Origin: Pannonibacter sp. SL95
Lineage (GTDB): Bacteria > Pseudomonadota > Alphaproteobacteria > Rhizobiales > Stappiaceae
Reading direction: 5' to 3'
NCBI RefSeq assembly: GCF_026672425.1
Contig: NZ_JAPPRC010000003.1
Location: forward strand, 1,656,501-1,720,500
Length of the DNA stretch: 64,000 bases
Part shown: positions 2,513 to 14,769 of the stretch, in pieces
Numbering within the stretch: the stretch's first letter is position 1
How the letters are laid out: each line of letters begins with the position of its first letter
Position numbers and translations under genes: made by a program
Notes under the pieces: model-generated
The model's input: only the letters and a program-made list of their open reading frames with translations
Told to the model about the DNA's origin: nothing
Database searches by the model: none

Positions 2513-2943
2513 CTTGGGCGTCGGATCCTGGGGCACCGGTTGCTGTTGACGTCTGATTTGGGAGCGGGTGGCAACAGTCCGGTCGATTAATTATGGGATC
2601 AGAATAAATCCAAACTGCTCAAGCGAAAAGCAATCGGGGGTGCAAGGACGATTGTAATTGCCCTTGTCGCTAACGGCGTCTTGACCGGATTGCAGAAAGG
2701 GCTCGTGTCAGCGGTCGCTCGCGCGGCTGCACGGTGGTCGCGCCGGGTCAGCCATGCTTCGTGCCGCAGGCCGCGTATCGACCGATCAGAGTTGTTCGAT
2801 CCCGGCGGACGATGTTGACATTGGCCGCAAACACGCGGAAAACGGGGCTGGTTTTCGAAGCGCGCGCAAGGCGAGGTATTCCTTGTCCCTCGGCGTAACG
2901 GCAAACCGACGCTAGTCACTCAGGCAATATCAGGACACGCGAC
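2513..2943. other. Intergenic stretch, no supported gene
   Basis: About 430 bp between a leftward small gene and the rightward NDUFS4-like gene. The open frames here are short and rich in arginine and cysteine, typical of GC-rich non-coding frames. It presumably holds the promoter of the downstream gene, but I see no clear -35/-10 pair. Confidence 0.4.
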
Positions 2944-3249
2944 ATGGTTGCGCGCATCTATCGTCCGGCCAAGACGGCCATGCAGTCCGGCAAGGCTAAA
3001 ACCCATCGCTGGGTGCTCGAATATGAGCCGGAAGTTGCCCGGACCGTGGAGCCCCTGATGGGCTACACCTCATCTTCCGACATGAAGCAGCAGGTGCGGT
3101 TGTATTTTGAAAGCGCCGAGGATGCGGTTGCCTATGCCAAGCGCGTTGGCCTTGCCCACCGCGTCGAGCAGCCGAAGGATCGCGTGGTGCGGGGCTCGTC
3201 CTATTCGGACAACTTCCGCTTCGACCGCTCTGCGCCCTGGACGCACTGA
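2944..3249 (+). CDS. NDUFS4-like ETC complex I accessory subunit
   Basis: The product has 101 residues: ARIYRPAKTAMQSG at the N terminus, then HRWVLEYEP, MGYTSSSDMKQQVRL and a C-terminal DNFRFDR. These match the NADH dehydrogenase 18-kDa (NDUFS4) family, which alphaproteobacteria share with mitochondria. By family knowledge it is a peripheral subunit of respiratory complex I on the cytoplasmic face. AGGA lies about 8 bp upstream of the start. It stands alone, away from any nuo operon in the window. Confidence 0.85.
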   Translation: MVARIYRPAKTAMQSGKAKTHRWVLEYEPEVARTVEPLMGYTSSSDMKQQVRLYFESAEDAVAYAKRVGLAHRVEQPKDRVVRGSSYSDNFRFDRSAPWTH

Positions 3250-3289
3250 CAGGTTCCGCCGGCTGGTTTTGCCGGCCTTGAAAACCGAA

Positions 3290-3320
3290 GCCCCGGTGTC
3301 TACCGGGGCCGTATTCGTTT
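3290..3320 (+). terminator. Possible terminator after the NDUFS4-like gene
   Basis: GCCCCGGT (3290-3297) pairs with ACCGGGGC (3302-3309) around a 4-nt loop. It is followed by CGTATTCGTTT, a weak U tract, so termination may be partial. Confidence 0.45.
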
Positions 3321-3348
3321 GAGACCGCCGGTCTCAACTTGATCGCAT

Positions 3349-3425
3349 GGCCCCGTAGCTCAGCTGGATAGAGCACTCGCCTTCTAAGCGAATGGTCGCA
3401 GGTTCGAATCCTGCCGGGGTCGCCA
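3349..3425 (+). tRNA. tRNA-Arg(UCU)
   Basis: 77 nt with encoded CCA. The acceptor stem GGCCCCG pairs with CGGGGTC, the anticodon loop is CTTCTAA (TCT at 3383-3385), and the T-loop is TTCGAAT. The outermost pair of the anticodon stem is a C-A mismatch (CTCGC opposite GCGAA); the other four pairs are normal. Confidence 0.94.
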
Positions 3426-3447
3426 TCATCAATGTCCTGAGTGAAAA

Positions 3448-3487
3448 CTGCCAGCGGCTGCCTGAGGCTGCCAGAGGTTGCCAGTGC
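3448..3487 (+). repeat. Degenerate 10-bp tandem repeat, four units
   Basis: Four adjacent decamers read CTGCCAGCGG, CTGCCTGAGG, CTGCCAGAGG and TTGCCAGTGC, starting 23 bp after tRNA-Arg. No function is evident. Confidence 0.55.
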
Positions 3488-4086
3488 CGCACGGGCGGAT
3501 CGCTGGTGTGCGACCGGCTTTGAATTGCCCGCAAGTGCGCAGAAACAATCGGAAGCAAATCCGTATGGCGAAGACGCCGACGATGGACTTTTCATCCTGG
3601 CGGATGATCACATGCCGCGATTTGATCCACTGTCGTTGAAGAAGCGGGATATGTTTTCCACAGCTTCCGCCATGCTGCGCCGTAAACTTCCAGGAAAAAC
3701 AGAGGGATGTGCCGCCGTCGGCAATCGCTGTCGCTGATTCGAAGGGGTGTTTCAATCCAGATTGATACACCCGCCTGTGCAAGTATCGCTGGAGATACAG
3801 CCTTGGACTTCCGATGGGGCACTGCCAACGAAACCTGTGCCTGGACTGATGTCCGGGATGCCGCGCGCATGCAGCAGAAATGACGCCAGGCGAAAACTTC
3901 CTACCCGGTGCGGCAAGTCTGACCGATAGACCGGATCAGAAACATTCGGAAAATCAGGGTGGGATTGCAGGGACCCCGGCGGGTTGATGACGCATGTCCT
4001 GCGGCGCAGGTCGGCCGTCAGCGCTGCGGCCCCTTCACAGCGCATGTTATAGAACACGTGCGAAAGGGCCGCGTTGTGCGAACTTT
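3488..4086. other. Intergenic stretch, no supported gene
   Basis: About 600 bp downstream of tRNA-Arg. The frames on both strands are short and of poor protein composition (many Arg, Ser, Cys). There is no integrase remnant and no second copy of the tRNA 3' end that I can find. Confidence 0.4.
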
Positions 4087-4344
4087 TCAGTTTGCCGAGA
4101 TGTCGCGGACCCGATCCTGCGGAGCGAACTTCGATTTGATTGCGGCGTTGATCTCGTCGGATTCTTCGTCGAGTGCCTTCAACGCGAGGCTGAGCAAGTA
4201 GGCACAGAACGTGCGGCCATCCTTCTCTGCTTCGCGGCGCGTGAAATAGATCATGCGCTTGAGCGACTCGTTGGTGAGTTCGCCATCCTGGCCCTCAAGG
4301 GCGTCCGGACGCTGGGACTGTTGGATATCGGCAGCTTTCGACAT
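4087..4344 (-). CDS. Small hypothetical protein
   Basis: The product has 85 residues, is charged and predicted helical (NESLKRMIYFTRREAEKDG, then LLSLALKALDEESDEINAAI). An AGGA ribosome-binding site lies about 8 bp upstream of the ATG. It is divergent from the BTAD/SARP regulator 200 bp away. I do not recognise the family. Any link to the neighbouring peptide locus is positional only. Confidence 0.55.
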   Translation of the reverse strand: MSKAADIQQSQRPDALEGQDGELTNESLKRMIYFTRREAEKDGRTFCAYLLSLALKALDEESDEINAAIKSKFAPQDRVRDISAN

Positions 4345-4547
4345 CTGGATCCTACCGTTTTACTACTGGGCCTCACTGGACCGCATGGTAACGACCTGCT
4401 CGGGCGTCGCCATCTGCATCCTGCGCGGCGATCTTCCGTTCGCAGCGTGAAACTTGCGTGATACGGTGACTGGATATGATGCTGAGTCAAGCTCACGCAA
4501 AGTCAAGCTGGTGCAGCCCGGTTCGGACCTGAACGAGACCGGAGACG

Positions 4548-6662
4548 ATGGGGCAAACAGGAGCGGTGGCTACACCTGGACGACTTTATCTGCAGACACT
4601 TGGCCCGGTGCGACTTGTCGCGCCCGGGGACGTCGTGCTGCCGTTCAAGACGCGCAAGTCGCTGGCATTGATCGCTTTTCTGTTGCGCCGTCCCGGATTT
4701 ACCGCGACCCGATCGGAAGTGGCTGCGCTGCTGTGGAGCGAGGGCGACCGGGCGAAGGCGGCGGTTTCGCTGCGCCAGGCGGTGGCGCATGTGCGTCAGG
4801 CAGAAACAACCAGCGGTGTCCGGCTCATTGATGCGTCGATGACGGGCATCACTCTGCTGGGCGAGGCCATCAGCACGGATCTCGACGTGCTCCATCAGTC
4901 GCTGTCCGGCCAGATTTCACTGGACGAGGATCAGCTGCGGGAACTGTGGGGCGGTGATTTCCTGTCTGGATTCGATGCAATTGACCCAGCCTTTGCTGAC
5001 TGGCTCGGTCTTGAGCAGGAGAGGGTCCGGGCCGGCGTTGTCGAGAAGGCCATCAATGCGCTGGAGGAGTTGCAGGCCATCGGCGGCAATGGCGCAGCCG
5101 GTCAGCGGGAAGTCATCGCAGGTTTTCTGCTGAAACTTGATCCGGCGAACGAGTTTGCGCATCAGGTGCTCATCAGGCATTTCCTGTCGCTGGGCCGACG
5201 GGAACGGGCTTTGCAGCAACTGCGCGATTGCCGCCGCGAGCTTAGGAACCTGCTGGATCAGGAACCCGATGAAGCAACGCTGCGCCTGATTGACGATGCG
5301 GATGCGGCGAGTGGCACGACAGCTGACGCTCCGGTCGCAGATCGCTTGCAACCGACGAACCTGGATCCGCGAGAGGCCAATGAACGCCGAGCTGGCGAGG
5401 GGCGGAGCGATCCCGCGTCGGCGGATTGGGCGAATTCGGTCGTCGACTTTCCAGCCTTGCGGCGCGATATCCTGCTGCCGGTGCTGTCGATTGCCAGCCT
5501 CGCATTCGAACGCGATACCGACCATATGGCCTTGTCACTGCGTGACGAGATCGTCGCTGGGCTCTCCGCTTATCGCTGCTTCGAAATGTATGAGGCGGCC
5601 TACTGGATGGGCGAGGATGGCACAGCGCCGGTGCGGGTTGATGGCGGCGAACTCGGCAGCTTCCTTCTGCGTTTCCGCCGCGACCGGATGCTCAACCGCA
5701 TCTATGTCCAGCTGGAAAACCGCAGCAGCGGGCAGATTGCGTTCAACGAAGTCATTGATCTGACGTTGGCAAAGTCACCTTCCGAGCGTGTCGAGGCGGT
5801 GTACCGGACGGTCAGCCGTGTTTATGGCCACATCATCGGCCGACTTCGGCAGCGTCCAGGACGATCGGCATTTTCCCGTTGGTGCCAGGCGGAAGCCTTG
5901 ATCTGGGACTTCAACCTTGCCTCGGACAGGAAGGCACTGCAGATCCTGGCAGAGCTCGAGAAGTCGCATGGCAATTTCAGCCTGATCTACGCCGGCCGCT
6001 GCTCGATCCTGATGAAACAGGCGCTGTGCTATCCCCATCCCGGCAGCGGGATGATGGATCAGGACGAATTGCTTGGCCTGTCGGAGAAGGCGGTGGCTCT
6101 TGATCCCTGGCAGGTGATCAACCATCGCATGAACGGCTGGACACTTATCCAATCCAAGCGTCCGGATGACGCGGCCCGTGCCTTCCGCCAAGCGCTCGAG
6201 CTCAATCCGCTTGACCCGATGAATGTGATTTCAGCGTCCGAGGCGCTCGCCTACATCGGCGACCAGCGCAATGCCACTGACCTTGCCTTGCGCGCTTTTG
6301 ACGGGCTGACGACGACGCCGCGGATTGTTTACGGATATCTGGCGAATGTCTTTTTCGCCTCTGGCGACTTTGATAGGGCTGCCGAATTTGCCCGGCGGGG
6401 ACCTATTGACAACATTCACGTCCTGACGACCAAATTTGCTGCTCAGCAAAATGCCGGTTTGTTCGAGGAGGCAGCCGCCACGCGTGCGTTGCTTTTGCAG
6501 CGCATGTCCGCGCAGTTTGGCCGACAGGACCCGTCGACGCATTCAGCCGAGCTGACCGCCTGGTTAAACCAGGTCAATCTTTTCCAGACACCAGCCATTC
6601 GCGCCGCATTTGACAGTGCTCTCGACACGTTACGCGAAACGCTGGGCTTGCGCCGGTTCTGA
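4548..6662 (+). CDS. BTAD/SARP-type transcriptional activator with TPR-like C-terminal half
   Basis: The product has 704 residues. Residues about 12-95 resemble an OmpR/PhoB-type winged helix of the SARP class (FKTRKSLALIAFLL, then RSEVAALLWSEGDRAKA). Residues about 105-245 resemble the all-helical BTAD domain (WGGDFLSGF, FADWLGLEQERVR, RALQQLRDCRREL). After a proline/alanine linker, a region like those in CadC/adenylate-cyclase-type regulators (SIASLAFERDTDHMALSLRDEI) leads into tetratricopeptide-like helices (AARAFRQALELNPLDP). It is probably cytoplasmic and DNA-binding. It ends 37 bp from the convergent NHLP-like peptide genes, so it is the best candidate regulator of that locus. GGAG lies only 3 bp before the ATG. 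Confidence 0.75.
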   Translation: MGQTGAVATPGRLYLQTLGPVRLVAPGDVVLPFKTRKSLALIAFLLRRPGFTATRSEVAALLWSEGDRAKAAVSLRQAVAHVRQAETTSGVRLIDASMTGITLLGEAISTDLDVLHQSLSGQISLDEDQLRELWGGDFLSGFDAIDPAFADWLGLEQERVRAGVVEKAINALEELQAIGGNGAAGQREVIAGFLLKLDPANEFAHQVLIRHFLSLGRRERALQQLRDCRRELRNLLDQEPDEATLRLIDDADAASGTTADAPVADRLQPTNLDPREANERRAGEGRSDPASADWANSVVDFPALRRDILLPVLSIASLAFERDTDHMALSLRDEIVAGLSAYRCFEMYEAAYWMGEDGTAPVRVDGGELGSFLLRFRRDRMLNRIYVQLENRSSGQIAFNEVIDLTLAKSPSERVEAVYRTVSRVYGHIIGRLRQRPGRSAFSRWCQAEALIWDFNLASDRKALQILAELEKSHGNFSLIYAGRCSILMKQALCYPHPGSGMMDQDELLGLSEKAVALDPWQVINHRMNGWTLIQSKRPDDAARAFRQALELNPLDPMNVISASEALAYIGDQRNATDLALRAFDGLTTTPRIVYGYLANVFFASGDFDRAAEFARRGPIDNIHVLTTKFAAQQNAGLFEEAAATRALLLQRMSAQFGRQDPSTHSAELTAWLNQVNLFQTPAIRAAFDSALDTLRETLGLRRF

Positions 6663-6699
6663 CAAGATCGCTGCCGCCATCAGTCGCGCTCTTGCCGAA

Positions 6700-7014
6700 T
6701 TAGCTGAATCTGACAGCGAGAGCTTCAGCTGAATCCAAAGCCATTCCCGCAATTCCGCTCAAGTAGGCTTCATCTGTCTGGTCGAGTTTGGCTGCGTTAT
6801 AGCGGTAGGGCAGAACGACATGCCGCGTCTGTGCAGTGTCGCAAACCACTGTGAAGTCAAACAAGGCAATGACTTCTTCCGGGACGCCGGCCGCAGCCAG
6901 AACGGACTTTGGGTTTTCCTGCAGTGCGCGGCGCTTGGTCGGGTCGCTGCCTGCTTCTGCCAGCACGCGGCCCAACGCAGCGACTCTGCTGGCCGGCATC
7001 GGAAAGCGAGCCAT
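6700..7014 (-). CDS. NHLP-like RiPP precursor peptide A
   Basis: The product has 104 residues. The arrangement SDPTKRRALQENPKSVLAAAG (residues about 23-43), then FTVVCDT, then HVVLP (65-69) mirrors the nitrile-hydratase-leader-peptide (NHLP) plan of a DP-x-L-x-DP/NPK helix, a beta pair and a VLP motif. A helix LDQTDEAYLSGIAG (78-90) follows, where known NHLP leaders have their last helix before cleavage. The remaining 14 residues would be the core if cleavage is at IAG. They contain Ser but no Cys. AAGGA lies 9 bp before the ATG. It sits 71 bp after precursor B in the same leftward unit, with a YcaO gene transcribed divergently. The family call is inference from motif order. Confidence 0.6.
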   Translation of the reverse strand: MARFPMPASRVAALGRVLAEAGSDPTKRRALQENPKSVLAAAGVPEEVIALFDFTVVCDTAQTRHVVLPYRYNAAKLDQTDEAYLSGIAGMALDSAEALAVRFS

Positions 7015-7085
7015 GATCGTCTTCCTTCGCTTTGGAACGGTGGCCCCGCTCTCCCGAGCAGGGCCTGTAGGGTGCCGACTAAAAG

Positions 7086-7355
7086 TCAGGCCGGGTCAAC
7101 TTCGTAGAAGCAGAAGCCGAGAGCCTTGCGGCCGATCTCGGCGAAATAGGCTTCATCGCTGGCAGCGACGCGGGCTGCGTCGATGTCTGCCGGGACTACG
7201 AGATGCACACTGTCGACACCGTCGGCCAGGACGGTCGTGCCGGAGGCTTCTGCCTCGATGAGCGCTGCGGCCTGCTGGGCCTGACCTTCGTTCACCAGCT
7301 GACCGATGAGGGCACCAAAGTTTACGAGAGTTTCGCGGGTGGTTTCCTGACGCAT
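7086..7355 (-). CDS. NHLP-like RiPP precursor peptide B
   Basis: The product has 89 residues; the chosen ATG at 7355 follows an AGAGG site. From HLVVP (51-55) it aligns without gaps to precursor A for about 30 residues: AAR/AAK, DEAYF/DEAYL, then a shared Ile and Ala-Leu. The N-terminal half lacks the DP-NPK segment of peptide A and is a shorter helix (FGALIGQLVNEGQAQQAAALI). The tail after EIGR (77-89) contains one Cys, two Phe and one Tyr. It is the first gene of the leftward unit and divergent from YcaO. It is most likely a paralogous precursor, or else an accessory peptide retaining only the leader end. Confidence 0.5.
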   Translation of the reverse strand: MRQETTRETLVNFGALIGQLVNEGQAQQAAALIEAEASGTTVLADGVDSVHLVVPADIDAARVAASDEAYFAEIGRKALGFCFYEVDPA

Positions 7356-7661
7356 GTCGAACCTCTGTGTGTGGCGGAGACCGGGCCATGGGCATGCAGA
7401 ACCCTGTGCCGGCAACACGGTTTTCGTGCTGCAGCCTGCCGTATCTCCGGGCCGCTTAGGCCGGTGACTGGTTAGTTGTCTTCGGATCGTCTGATCGGGG
7501 TGCCGTGCCGCGTCGTTGCGGTTCCGTCCCGAGCCACTCCACATTCATCGCGGCGATTGCGCTCGGCAAGAGGGGCTGGCAGGCTCGCCACCTGTGCAAC
7601 TGACGGACGGTCCAGGGCTGTGGAAAAGGTTAACGAGACGTTTCCTGCGGTGGTTTCGAGC
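7356..7661. promoter_or_regulatory. Divergent intergenic region between peptide genes and YcaO
   Basis: About 306 bp separating oppositely transcribed genes, presumably holding both promoters. I find no near-consensus -35/-10 pair. The YcaO frame stays open leftward to 7476 but is arginine-rich there and looks non-coding. Confidence 0.4.
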
Positions 7662-9077
7662 ATGCATCCACGGGCCACGCAATCCGCGCCAGGGAGCGAT
7701 GACGCGCCAGCAATGGTGCAAATCTTGGAGGCCCTGGGCCTGAGGGATGGAGGCGATGCCGGCGCCGGCGATGCCGGTGCTGCTGGCTCATCTGCACAAG
7801 AGTTCGAGCCATTTTCGCCTCTGCTTTCAGCCTGGCCGCTCGATATCCGGTTTCTTGCTGCGGACGGCGGGGTTCATCTGGCAACCGCCATTCTGGATCC
7901 CCTGCGATCCGCTGCAGCTCCAGCTGGGGCAGACCAGTCCTGGCGTGTCGAAGCCGCCAGGACGCTCGCGACGCTGGTGAGCGGCGGGCAGGGATTTGAC
8001 CGGCACAAGGCGCTCAAATCCTGCCTTGGCGAAATGGCCGAGCGGCTCAGCCTCCTGTCGCGTGGGGCAGGGGATCCGAAAATTGTTTCGAGAGAAGAAG
8101 GACTTGTCGATATTCCCGCCGGGCCGTTGCTGCGCTTCAGTCCGGCACAGGAGCGGCGGCTCGCGGGGCGCCACCCTTTGCTGGAGCAGCACTGGACCGA
8201 TGCCGGTATCGACTGGAACGGGCTCTCCGAGCGTCGGCTTATTGCTGAACCACTGTGTGGCGGTGCTCCGGTTCAGGTCCCGGCGCTCGGACACATCGTC
8301 GGGGAGGGAGCGTGGTGTGGCCTTCCGGATCTGCCGATCGCATCGTCGGTCGGGGCAGCGGTCTGGACTGATCTGGATGGGGCTCGCGCACGTGCGCTCA
8401 GCGAGGCGGTCGAGCGCGATGCCATTGGCCTGTGCTGGTACAACCGGCTGGGGATAACCCCTCTGCAGCAGGGGGTGTGGCAGGAGGTTTTGCCTGAAAT
8501 TTGTGCAGGGTGGATCACTGCGCGATCTCGCATCACGCGCGTCTATTGGGCTCCTGCCGCCTTTGATCATCACGTCGTGGTCGCGCTGTCGTGGATCGGG
8601 GAGGGGAAAATGGGGGCAGCTGGCTTTGCGTCCGGGGCGAGCGCGGCCGGGACGGTCGCATCGGCTGTTCTGGAGCTTCTGCAAGGGGAGCGGATGCAGG
8701 AGCTGCGGCTGGCGGTGCAGGCTTCGCCCGCCCAGACAGGCGTGAAGTTGCCATTGGCACTTGATCTCGCCATCAACCAGGACATCCGTCAGGCCTTTCA
8801 CGTCCTGCCTGACACTGCAGCGCTGACCAGTCTTCCGCCCGACTTTGCGCCAGGCGATCTTGAGCGCAGTCTGATGCAAAGGGGCGTGAGGGCCTATTTC
8901 ATTGATCTGTCCCGGGAGGATATCGGCCTGTCCTGTGCCAAGGTCGTCAGTCCAGACCTTGTGGACTGGCAGCCACGATTTGGCAGCTCCCGTCTTTTTG
9001 AGGAACCCCTGCGCCTTGGGCTCCGGCAACATGCTGCAACGGAAGCCGAATTTGCCGAACGTCCCTTTCCATTCTGA
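7662..9077 (+). CDS. YcaO-domain protein (RiPP azoline/thioamide-type cyclodehydratase)
   Basis: With the ATG at 7662 the product has 471 residues. Starts at TTG 7476 or ATG 7713 are possible, and none has a good ribosome-binding site. YcaO hallmarks appear in order: KSCLGEMAERLSL (residues about 119-131), SSVGAAVWTD then ALSEAVERDA (about 228-254), a glycine-rich GAAGFASGASAAG followed by SAVLELLQ, and a C-terminal SREDIGLSCAKVVSPDL. It ends RPFPF, close to the proline-rich C terminus of many YcaO cyclodehydratases. By family it activates backbone amides with ATP. No E1-like, Ocin-ThiF or TfuA partner is nearby, so the reaction type is open. The two NHLP-like peptides next door are the likely substrates. 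Confidence 0.8.
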   Translation: MHPRATQSAPGSDDAPAMVQILEALGLRDGGDAGAGDAGAAGSSAQEFEPFSPLLSAWPLDIRFLAADGGVHLATAILDPLRSAAAPAGADQSWRVEAARTLATLVSGGQGFDRHKALKSCLGEMAERLSLLSRGAGDPKIVSREEGLVDIPAGPLLRFSPAQERRLAGRHPLLEQHWTDAGIDWNGLSERRLIAEPLCGGAPVQVPALGHIVGEGAWCGLPDLPIASSVGAAVWTDLDGARARALSEAVERDAIGLCWYNRLGITPLQQGVWQEVLPEICAGWITARSRITRVYWAPAAFDHHVVVALSWIGEGKMGAAGFASGASAAGTVASAVLELLQGERMQELRLAVQASPAQTGVKLPLALDLAINQDIRQAFHVLPDTAALTSLPPDFAPGDLERSLMQRGVRAYFIDLSREDIGLSCAKVVSPDLVDWQPRFGSSRLFEEPLRLGLRQHAATEAEFAERPFPF

Positions 9078-9139: not shown

Positions 9140-9250
9140 GAGATTGAAACTCCACTTTTGGAGCGGCGTTCTCACCGGCTCTCGCCGGTTCCCCTCTTGG
9201 GGTCTCTGGAAACCTGACTTCATGGCGGACCTTCGGGTCCGCCTTTTTTC
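9140..9250 (+). ncRNA. Candidate structured small RNA
   Basis: A transcript of about 110 nt is bounded by the promoter at 9105-9133 and the terminator at 9224-9250. It contains perfect tetraloop hairpins: CTCCA/TGGAG (9150-9163), ACCGGC/GCCGGT (9174-9189) and CCCC/GGGG (9191-9202), all with pyrimidine loops. There is no credible ORF. I do not recognise it as 6S, SRP, tmRNA or RNase P RNA. The transcription start is inferred. Confidence 0.55.
9224..9250 (+). terminator. Rho-independent terminator with UUCG loop
   Basis: GGCGGACC (9224-9231) pairs perfectly with GGTCCGCC (9236-9243) around TTCG, followed by TTTTTTC. It would end the candidate sRNA and any readthrough from YcaO. Confidence 0.88.
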
Positions 9251-13076: not shown

Positions 13077-13996
13077 CGGACGGTTTTGAAACGGGCGGCA
13101 TGGACACTGGTGGTCCAGGCTGGAAGCGGCGGCTTGTCGCGGTCCGCGAGCGGTTTCTGGGAAACTGGCGCAGGGTCAGGACAGTCATCGCCAACCGCCG
13201 CCGCAGGGCCGAACGCCTGCATGACCCCTTGCCCGCCGGCCAGCGGCCCCAGGACTTTCTGGCGATCCTGCTTCTGACGGTTGGCATCGCCGTGGTGCTT
13301 GCCGATATCCCGACCTATCCGTGGCTGCGCTCCCTGCCACCGGGATACCGGGAGGCGTTTGCGGCCATCACGGATCTTGGCAAGGCAAACTGGATCCTGT
13401 GGTCAACCGGTCTGTTCTGCCTTGGCTATCTCGCCTTTGCTGACTTGAGCCGCCTCGCAGGACGGGCCCGGATGGCCATGGCCATGACCTGGACCTACGC
13501 AGCTTTTATTTTCTACACCGTCGCGCTGACCGGCATCCTGTCGCTGATCTTCAAGTGGATCCTCGGGCGCGCCCGCCCGAAGCTCTATGAACAGGTCGGT
13601 CCGATTGCCTTCGATCCGTTCGTCTTCAATGGTGCCTACACCAGTTTTCCGTCCGGGCATTCGACCACGGTTGCGGCGCTGGCGACAGCGCTGGCACTGA
13701 TCTTTCCGACCTGGCGCTGGCTGATCATCGTCGCGGCTTTCTGGGCTGCCTTCAGCCGCATCATGGTTGGCGCGCATTACCCCTCGGATGTGATCGCCGG
13801 AACCTTGCTCGGCATGACTGTGACGCTGTTCTGCGCCCGCTGGATGGCACGGCGCCGGTTGGGCTTTACGCTGGCGCCCAATGGCAGCATCGTTCCCATC
13901 CTCAACCAGCGCTCCGCCGCGCTCAGCCTGCGCGCTCTGTGGCGCGCCCTGCTTGGCCGGAGCTCGGCCCTGCGCCCGGCCAAGGGCGGGGAGTGA
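13073..13996 (+). CDS. PAP2-family phosphatase (LpxE/LpxF-like)
   Basis: The product has 307 residues. The three-part phosphatase signature is complete: KWILGRARP, SFPSGHST and SRIMVGAHYPSD, set among about six membrane segments. Active sites of such enzymes face the periplasm. The operon context between GT39 and GT2 genes suggests dephosphorylation of lipid A, which would free the position for a sugar, or of a polyprenyl carrier. A basic N-terminal region (NRRRRAERLHDP) precedes the first helix. Translation is coupled to the upstream gene through a 4-bp overlap. Confidence 0.8.
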   Translation: MTDGFETGGMDTGGPGWKRRLVAVRERFLGNWRRVRTVIANRRRRAERLHDPLPAGQRPQDFLAILLLTVGIAVVLADIPTYPWLRSLPPGYREAFAAITDLGKANWILWSTGLFCLGYLAFADLSRLAGRARMAMAMTWTYAAFIFYTVALTGILSLIFKWILGRARPKLYEQVGPIAFDPFVFNGAYTSFPSGHSTTVAALATALALIFPTWRWLIIVAAFWAAFSRIMVGAHYPSDVIAGTLLGMTVTLFCARWMARRRLGFTLAPNGSIVPILNQRSAALSLRALWRALLGRSSALRPAKGGE

Positions 13997-14001
13997 CCAC
14001 A

Positions 14002-14769
14002 ATGACCGATATGACCAACACCGACATGACCGGTGCGCTTGACGTGACCGTCGTTGTTCCCGCCAAGGACGAGCGCGACAACCTGCCAATCCTGCTGGAC
14101 GAAATTTCTGCCGCGCTGGACGGATGGGCCTTTGAGGTCATCGTCGTCGATGACGGCTCCAGCGACGGGACCGATCAGGTGCTGGCCGCCTACGCGTCGA
14201 CCCATGCCTGGCTGCGCCCGCTCCGTCATGCTCAGGCCTGCGGCCAGAGCTGCGCCGTGCGCACGGGCGTTTTGCAAGCCCGGGGCACGGTGGTTGCGAC
14301 CATTGACGGCGACGGGGAAAACAACCCGGCCTACATTCCCGAGCTGCTGAAGGCGCTGGAGGCTGGAGGCCCGGCCGTAGCCCTGGCTGCGGGCCAGCGG
14401 GTCGGACGGAAGGCAAGCCGGGCCAAGCGTCTGGCGTCGAAGCTTGCCAACAAGCTGCGTGGTGCGCTGCTCAAGGACAACACCCGCGACAGCGGCTGTG
14501 GCCTGAAGGCGCTCAGGCGCGAGGTTTTCCTGCAGCTGCCTTATTTTGACAGCTGGCACCGGTTTCTTCCGGCGCTGGTCATCCGCGAGGGCTACGGCGT
14601 CGTGCATGTCGATGTACTGGATCGGCAGCGCCGGCATGGGACCTCGAAATACGGCATTTTTGACCGGGCGCTGATCGGTGCGCTGGATCTCTTCGGCGTC
14701 TGGTGGCTGCGCCGCCGCCGAAAGGCAATTCCGGTTGTCTCCGCCATCGCTTCGGCGCCAGAAGCCTGA
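14002..14769 (+). CDS. GT2 polyprenyl-phosphate sugar synthase
   Basis: The product has 255 residues. VTVVVPAKDERDNLP, EVIVVDDGSSDGT and VATIDGDGENNP are the strand-DDGS and DxD-like motifs of the DPMS/ArnC-like GT2 enzymes. SGCGLKALRREVF and RRHGTSKYG are further family motifs. It has no C-terminal membrane helices, so it is probably a peripheral cytoplasmic enzyme that loads a sugar onto undecaprenyl phosphate for the GT39 protein. It begins 6 bp after the PAP2 stop. RgtE of Rhizobium is the closest functional analogue I can name; the sugar is not determined by the sequence. Confidence 0.82.
   Translation: MTDMTNTDMTGALDVTVVVPAKDERDNLPILLDEISAALDGWAFEVIVVDDGSSDGTDQVLAAYASTHAWLRPLRHAQACGQSCAVRTGVLQARGTVVATIDGDGENNPAYIPELLKALEAGGPAVALAAGQRVGRKASRAKRLASKLANKLRGALLKDNTRDSGCGLKALRREVFLQLPYFDSWHRFLPALVIREGYGVVHVDVLDRQRRHGTSKYGIFDRALIGALDLFGVWWLRRRRKAIPVVSAIASAPEA

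Follow-up and report, generated by a model that had tools for sequence, protein, structure and literature searches.

In the genome of Pannonibacter sp. SL95 (Alphaproteobacteria, Stappiaceae) we analysed a window of 64,000 nucleotides (contig NZ_JAPPRC010000003.1, positions 1,656,501 to 1,720,500) and found a compact gene set of three parts: a regulator with BTAD and tetratricopeptide repeat (TPR) domains, two small proteins of the nitrile hydratase leader peptide (NHLP) type, and a lone YcaO enzyme. We suggest that these constitute a module in which a conserved cysteine in the tail of the second small protein is the target of the YcaO enzyme, and we give this reading a probability of about 0.5. 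In brief, the regulator (704 amino acids) is encoded at 4548..6662 on the forward strand and converges on PEP1, an NHLP-type small protein of 104 amino acids that lacks the Cys tail (6700..7014, reverse strand). Next comes PEP2, the NHLP-derived candidate substrate of 89 amino acids (7086..7355, reverse strand, start taken as the ATG at 7355), and divergently from it the YcaO enzyme of about 485 amino acids (7620..9077, forward strand), whose start is uncertain (GTG at 7620 or ATG at 7662). A preliminary description of this DNA had placed the two leftward peptide genes and the divergent YcaO gene correctly, and had overlooked the regulator and the conserved Cys tail. Its picture of a stripped-down NHLP-YcaO locus agrees with the absence of TIGR03882 and TfuA matches from the genome, but the set has a third part, because the BTAD-TPR regulator adjoins the peptide/YcaO pair at every locus examined in these families. 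The NHLP ancestry that it gave to both peptides also holds, but the two are not equivalent, because the conserved Cys tail is found on PEP2 only.

The gene set recurs as a unit. Among 297 genomes of the order, YcaO matches (E <= 2.4e-24) and PEP1 matches (E <= 1.2e-9) fall in the same 13, the window's genome included, with the two genes adjacent; homologues of the peptides thus do lie beside YcaO genes elsewhere, as the pairing proposed in the preliminary description implies. In each of the twelve other genomes the regulator, peptide and YcaO are found together. The gene order is BTAD> <PEP1 <PEP2 YcaO> in Stappiaceae and BTAD> <PEP YcaO> in two other families. Searching named genomes yielded 79 loci (all loci are numbered with L below). 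The 15 that belong to Stappiaceae (L082-L095, L097) each have the full set; in L090 the regulator is split across two frames. Inside Stappiaceae the system is patchy, with a PEP1 match in 5 of the 12 listed family genomes. Neighbouring open reading frames of at least 80 amino acids were clustered by BLAST for 31 loci from five lineage groups. The regulator and YcaO families occur in 31/31 loci. BLAST detects the peptide in 30 loci of four groups, and the profile detects it in the remaining group (L100). Two groups (14 Stappiaceae, 2 others) also have in common a gene that in the window lies 6 kb past the YcaO; no other family common to the lineage groups was found in these loci, be it a peptidase, a transporter or a second enzyme.

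The tail of PEP2 (7089..7136, reverse strand) reads IGRKALGFC-FYEVDPA in the window, and these last 16 residues hold one Cys and no Ser or Thr. In alignment A4 all 19 Cys-type rows carry [L/I]G-x6-C with one to nine further residues up to the C terminus (IGRKALGFCFYEVDPA in the window), and the tail is absent from the PEP1 rows. In 39/39 listed tails (the list was compiled by hand and omits near-identical relatives) L, I, V, M or F stands five residues past the first hydrophobic one, a position that was not a selection criterion. The motif therefore reads hydrophobic-[G/A]-x3-hydrophobic-x2-Cys, followed in the window by seven residues. Across lineages the tails mostly have a single Cys, and outside Stappiaceae the last residue after it is often a single Arg or Lys. 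PEP2 is present in all five genomes of the genus, each time with the tail Cys, and is identical in the genus mate L270 and in P. phragmitetus L082. The Cys tail is also found on small proteins of other lineages beside lone YcaOs, without a match to the peptide profile; 9/10 of those scanned had no NCBIfam match at E <= 0.1. Examples of such tails are ..LLGTILLRRCR (L110), ..RLGDYVMSRCK (L130), ..ALGQQIFKRCR (L139) and ..LAHHLIRSCASC (L099).

The frequency of spacing x6 differs between types of YcaO locus. With four duplicates left out, 135 loci were classed as lone YcaO with a BTAD-type match (47, E < 1e-10), lone YcaO without one (31) and fused YcaO (57), and spacings x0-x12 were counted in non-overlapping small genes (greedy non-overlap filter). 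Spacing x6 occurs in 32/47 BTAD-linked loci (31 when a spurious match in L084 is subtracted), the twelve other spacings in 4-19. The lone loci without a BTAD match have x6 in 9 and other spacings in 1-6; judged by eye, six of the nine are real-looking (L046, L099, L106, L107, L139, L227) and three are chance. The fused loci have x6 in 3 and other spacings in 6-13. Among loci not used for defining the pattern the tail is present in 10/12, against 3/57 of the fused loci (Fisher p 5e-8), several of the 12 being kin of the defining loci and therefore not fully independent; when three loci of another clade are added the figures are 10/15 against 3/57 (p 1e-6). An earlier filter, on the G+C content of third codon positions (GC3) alone, gave x6 in 27/47, 9/31 and 11/57, with a peak at x6 in the first two classes only. 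It lost most Roseibium peptides and was replaced by the greedy filter, which itself misses eleven loci with peptides that the profile detects.

By all methods together (filter, profile and one by hand) the tail is present in 43/47 BTAD-linked loci, that is 19/19 in Stappiaceae and 24/28 in others. The count is 43/44 if L236 and L248 (regulator matches cut by the stretch end, other clade) and L253 (TfuA present) are set aside, a step decided after their lack of a tail was seen. Locus L047 was at first a miss. Its YcaO sits in a tail clade, so that a tail was expected, and one was then found just past the regulator (13952-14491, reverse strand, ..RIADYTFAHCK). On a YcaO tree of 81 rows the tail label changes 3 times, against a shuffled mean of 26.0; the tree was made by a quick method, has several long branches and carries L047 as a locus without tail. 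Its 81 rows were chosen from 135 by dropping fourteen near relatives by name and domains below 250 amino acids, and by thinning the fused enzymes to about every third.

Judged by sequence profiles, PEP1 and PEP2 descend from NHLP peptides. PEP1 matches TIGR03793 with 29 bits (E 7e-7), which does not reach the curated cut-off of 50.9 bits, and PEP2 alone matches no NHLP model. A profile of eight peptides from two families other than the window's scores 64.9 bits with PEP1 and 27.4 bits with PEP2 (E 3.4e-6); the best of 860 shuffled decoys reached 4.6 bits. Of 33 rows of PEP1, PEP2 and single peptides, 26 match TIGR03793 at E <= 0.01 and 7 match NF038399, the Os1348 NHLP family. Of the NHLP layout recognised earlier, VLP/VVP is present in both peptides, but DP/NPK is present in PEP1 (SDPTK, ENPK) and absent from PEP2. 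A search at class level with the peptide alignment returned mostly other NHLP peptides.

Ka/Ks values (ratio of nonsynonymous to synonymous substitution rates) of the peptides lie at 0.06-0.37 in pairs with finite Ks, and those of PEP1 at 0.12-0.14 where finite. PEP1 and PEP2 are therefore real genes under purifying selection. In 6 of the 8 pairs with both values finite, Ka/Ks of the Cys peptide is below that of the adjoining YcaO, and in some pairs that of the regulator is lower still. The reverse, a peptide value above the YcaO value, would be expected for the precursor of a ribosomally synthesized and post-translationally modified peptide (RiPP) with a hypervariable core. Nor does PEP2 have the NHLP-style hypervariable core after a GG-type boundary: its tail is conserved, its Cys is fixed and there is no GG. 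The module is not a hypervariable-core RiPP.

The two peptides of Stappiaceae divide between them what two other families have in one. There, a single peptide begins like PEP1 (MARI.. or MPRL..) and bears a Cys tail like that of PEP2; in Stappiaceae PEP1 has an M(A/P)RF start and PEP2 has the tail. Within the window's genus the segment bearing the NPxxxL motif has also been lost from PEP2. PEP1, a paralogue without the Cys tail, probably serves as partner or carrier. Its C-terminal residue is Asn (often LN) in 15/20 rows, not in the window, L032 or L082, and PEP1 of L035 ends in a Cys of its own.

The enzyme matches PF02624 across the full domain (9e-26), ends in RPFPF and retains the ExxE, ExxERD and ExxQ motifs, which have an ATP/Mg role; its earlier identification as a YcaO protein is confirmed. 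It is the sole YcaO match in the 5.0 Mb genome, and its score against TIGR03604 is 65 bits, under the cut-off of 219. An AlphaFold2 model (mean predicted local distance difference test score, pLDDT, 88.6; first 54 residues mostly unsure) gave LynD as the best PDB match in Foldseek (E 9e-22), followed by MusD, TruD and stand-alone YcaOs. By profile, too, LynD, TruD and MusD are the nearest PDB relatives, the match to LynD residues 346-774 having E 8e-97, and MJ1094 and the M. kandleri YcaO are far behind (6e-25). The window YcaO is thus akin to the azoline-forming LynD and TruD. The N-terminal part of LynD, which we take to comprise a RiPP recognition element (RRE) and an E1-like domain, has no counterpart in the window YcaO, since the match begins at residue 346. 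The preliminary description considered the modification type unassignable; with azoline-forming enzymes as nearest solved relatives and one fixed Cys as candidate residue, it is now narrowed.

Partner genes were sought in the whole genome. There is no match to TIGR03882 (E1-like/ThiF), with other E1-like models (TIGR03603) and RRE models not searched, and no match to TfuA. One SagB-like dehydrogenase match (77.4 bits against a cut-off of 78.4) is found on another contig (L193, G000:C6:1082448-1082885). It lies, by eye, among frames resembling nonribosomal peptide synthetases, and was rejected as partner. Amino-acid ABC transporter genes start about 8 kb past the YcaO gene (by eye), with no tie to it. 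NHLP peptides with other tails, 1.1 Mb away beside two GNAT-like genes, were considered as a second substrate set and put aside. At this site (L191:8950-11759, G000:C3 about 535949-538758) seven tandem NHLP-like frames are seen by eye, five of them matched by profile, with a GG boundary after a DELPDELLD-like stretch and divergent from two tandem GNAT-like genes (by eye). The cluster resembles what we take to be a lipidated-proteusin locus, presumably of the selidamide type.

We suggest the following mechanism. The tail Cys of PEP2 is likely to be the substrate residue of the YcaO enzyme, in view of its fixed spacing beside lone YcaOs. The enzyme, with no recognition domain of its own, would bind PEP2 through the folded part and the hydrophobic-[G/A]-x3-hydrophobic segment, spend ATP to activate the backbone amide directly before the tail Cys, and let the Cys thiol attack to give a thiazoline (-18 Da). 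Provided that the tail Cys is the substrate, an azoline, most plausibly a thiazoline, is somewhat favoured as the product. The modified PEP2, or a tail piece of it, would then be the ligand for the TPR domain of the adjoining regulator; we consider the chances even that this domain senses the product. Two precedents bear on recognition. The E. coli YcaO needs the folded substrate uL16 and has no RRE (PMC13063428), and the absence of an RRE is therefore no bar here. MprC uses an L(X)4L segment of an NHLP, and PatE and the NHLP MprE7 bind their YcaO by L(X)4L (PMC12455567); the PEP2 tail motif resembles this segment, with the Cys three residues on.

The window regulator matches PF03704 (1.3e-7) and TPR_2 (3.6e-8) over cut-off, and the winged helix model Trans_reg_C only weakly (0.017). 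The BTAD domain is itself TPR-like. For a comparison of regulator heads ten neighbours were scanned, nine of them from tail loci. The regulator of L100 has BTAD and TPR, that of L110 a cyclase, BTAD and TPR, and those of L099, L106 (cyclase below cut-off), L107, L118 and L044 a class III cyclase and TPR. In L103, beside a fused-type YcaO, a kinase is combined with TPR. In the tail loci the output head thus varies, while TPR repeats are over cut-off in 7/9, as in the window, and this suggests the TPR part as the receptor. RRNPP-like regulators are TPR peptide receptors with a DNA-binding head; in the window the match to a DNA-binding winged helix is only weak. The distant BTAD-YcaO locus L253, outside the tail clades, has a BTAD-TPR regulator, a small gene, YcaO and TfuA in a row (2773-7174), and is a BTAD-linked locus of thioamide type.

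Several points, besides the kinship among the unused loci, weigh against the reading of a three-part module with the tail Cys as target. The tail pattern was derived partly from the loci on which it was then counted, and the gene filter was revised before the spacing test; the filter yields some spurious matches, in L035 and L050 as well as in L084. In L048, a relative of L047 within a tail clade, there is no tail-bearing gene in the stretch examined. Ka/Ks of the Cys peptide is slightly above that of the YcaO in two pairs, window/L082 and L036/L039. The structure model of PEP2 is poor (pLDDT 73, predicted TM score 0.42), and a fold search with it gave no NHLP structure or other match at E <= 0.001; the NHLP fold is therefore without structural support. 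No RRE was found here (RRE models not searched) and MprC needs one, so that the likeness to L(X)4L may be a coincidence. Of the fused YcaOs in the tree 20/21 have the GKG Lys, as against 1/33 tail rows; in the tail clades this Lys is mostly replaced by Gln or Arg, with Gln in the window (GGQG), and hence the chemistry may differ. As for the regulator, those of L041 and L230 have BTAD and no TPR family at the threshold used. Some neighbours were found through TPR similarity, so that the TPR link partly reflects the search route, and three tail loci, L046, L139 and L227, lack a regulator match within the available stretch, which in L227 is truncated by a contig end. The association is therefore less strict than among the window's relatives.

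The loss of the GKG Lys, which is typical of fused YcaOs, would also fit an enzyme that thioamidates the PEP2 backbone near the tail, like the E. coli YcaO on uL16 and the methanogen YcaO on McrA, with the Cys as a binding or metal-ligand residue or a sulfur relay. In the account of PMC13063428 the E. coli enzyme dispenses with both RRE and TfuA when acting on its folded protein substrate. We regard thioamidation as unlikely: the genome has no TfuA match, LynD, TruD and MusD are far nearer by profile than MJ1094 and the M. kandleri YcaO (8e-97 against 6e-25), and azoline formation would call for just such a Cys at a strict spacing. The kinship to MusD suggests another activity, since the title of the MusD entry, 7u58, one of the three nearest PDB relatives, names a YcaO-mediated ATP-dependent peptidase activity. 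The YcaO might then cleave before the tail Cys and release a short Cys peptide as signal, which would explain that no peptidase family is common to the lineage groups, and the single residue, often Arg or Lys, after the Cys in many non-Stappiaceae lineages could be read in the same way. In those lineages, however, the released piece would be merely Cys-Arg or Cys-Lys, and the MusD activity is taken from the entry title; such a peptidase seems improbable to us.

Equally improbable is an ordinary exported azoline RiPP, such as an antimicrobial, with its protease and transporter encoded elsewhere. The NHLP ancestry of the peptides would agree with it, and in other YcaO RiPPs precursors can lie distant from the maturation genes (Haft 2010). 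However, the tail is conserved rather than hypervariable, has one Cys in most lineages and belongs to a peptide that mostly evolves under a lower Ka/Ks than its enzyme (6/8 finite pairs), and the lineage groups share no transporter or peptidase family. A somewhat less remote proposal, still doubtful and compatible with the others, is that PEP1 and PEP2 arose by duplication of a single peptide and act jointly, recognition in trans being the task of PEP1 while PEP2 contributes the Cys tail. The combination of both features in the one peptide of other families, their division in Stappiaceae and the lost NPxxxL segment of PEP2 in the window's genus would fit this. The proposal is drawn from the sequences, and the C-terminal Asn of PEP1 in 15/20 rows hints at a role of its own. 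Our preferred reading remains the azoline-type modification of the tail Cys within the three-part module.

Among known systems the NHLP azoline proteusins MprE/MprC and NstC/NstD come close, with an NHLP-type precursor, an azoline-forming YcaO and an L(X)4L at the leader end. MprC, however, has an RRE and, together with the dehydrogenase MprD, acts on a core that follows the leader (PMC12455567), whereas in the window no RRE or dehydrogenase was found beside the YcaO, the hydrophobic pair is followed three residues on by a lone Cys, and a regulator recurs with the pair of genes. Bottromycin and the amidine streptamidine are likewise made with a YcaO without a fused E1-like domain (PMC4603692, PMC8442711), but their clusters, as described there, have extra tailoring genes against the three parts here. 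The E. coli YcaO with uL16 and the methanogen YcaO with McrA are lone enzymes that modify a protein without RRE (PMC13063428). In the E. coli case a ribosomal protein is the substrate and the enzyme gene has no short gene as neighbour, whereas in the window a dedicated small protein adjoins. The Os1348/PflA NHLP proteins of Pseudomonas, as far as described in PMC12636437 and PMC7726476, share the lack of a nearby protease gene, but the enzymes that modify PflA are of the HEXXH and MNIO-nitroreductase kinds instead of a YcaO. With linear azol(in)e-containing peptides and thiazole/oxazole-modified microcins (LAP/TOMM) the locus shares the YcaO (D) protein, by sequence and fold, but the genome has no TIGR03882 partner and the core is not rich in Cys, Ser and Thr. 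The thioamitides differ in their TfuA-associated YcaO, TfuA having no match in the window genome.

Some further features of the locus and its relatives should be mentioned. The divergent intergenic region between PEP2 and YcaO (7356..7619) may have a regulatory role, given the gene orientation. In several Roseibium/Labrenzia relatives a GAAAGCAGTCAA-like element is seen by eye upstream of PEP2. In about ten Roseibium/Labrenzia loci (L085-L097, by eye) a DNA element like TCGAAAGCAGTCAA..CAGTA, a possible operator, is placed about 100-130 bases upstream of PEP2. Downstream of the YcaO gene there is a terminator-like hairpin of 8 pairs, 7 of them G-C, followed by T6 (9224..9243, forward strand). 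It has the most pairs of 4 such hairpin-and-T sites in the locus, with 4.7 expected in shuffles; inverted repeats and promoters sought in the locus gave none of note. In Arboricoccus pini (L098; 5443-5742, 12205-12612) another Cys-tail peptide is encoded about 5 kb beyond the YcaO gene, in a frame that continues past the tail. A different type of Cys tail, SAG-x-CCC-like, terminates small proteins that match the NHLP profile weakly (L108:2380-2628, L116:1681-2043, L154:3101-3487), near YcaOs mostly of the fused kind.

Pairs of NHLP and YcaO with fused enzymes have already been described (Haft 2010), and RRE-bearing pairs, MprC and NstD, are now characterised (PMC12455567). We found no description of the three-part module or the Cys tail in the open-access library searched, which lacks most subscription journals. 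Clusters with stand-alone YcaOs are very poorly known according to Cox 2015. The constant tail motif described here points, across many genomes together, to a probable substrate and to the probable residue within it; two genes suffice to make the substrate question testable. The observations point to a signalling device with a modified protein rather than to an ordinary peptide antibiotic. Tentatively, we speculate that it may be a widespread alphaproteobacterial signalling system in which a lone YcaO modifies the backbone at one conserved Cys close to the C terminus of a dedicated small protein and a TPR receptor with exchangeable heads reads the modification. The heads would be a BTAD transcription factor or a class III cyclase, and the messenger a modified protein and not a secreted natural product. 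If so, the module would be more than a variant of the NHLP-YcaO pairs, and, should the regulator indeed read the product, YcaO chemistry would serve to regulate processes inside the cell, in addition to making antibiotics and modifying ribosomal or enzyme proteins.

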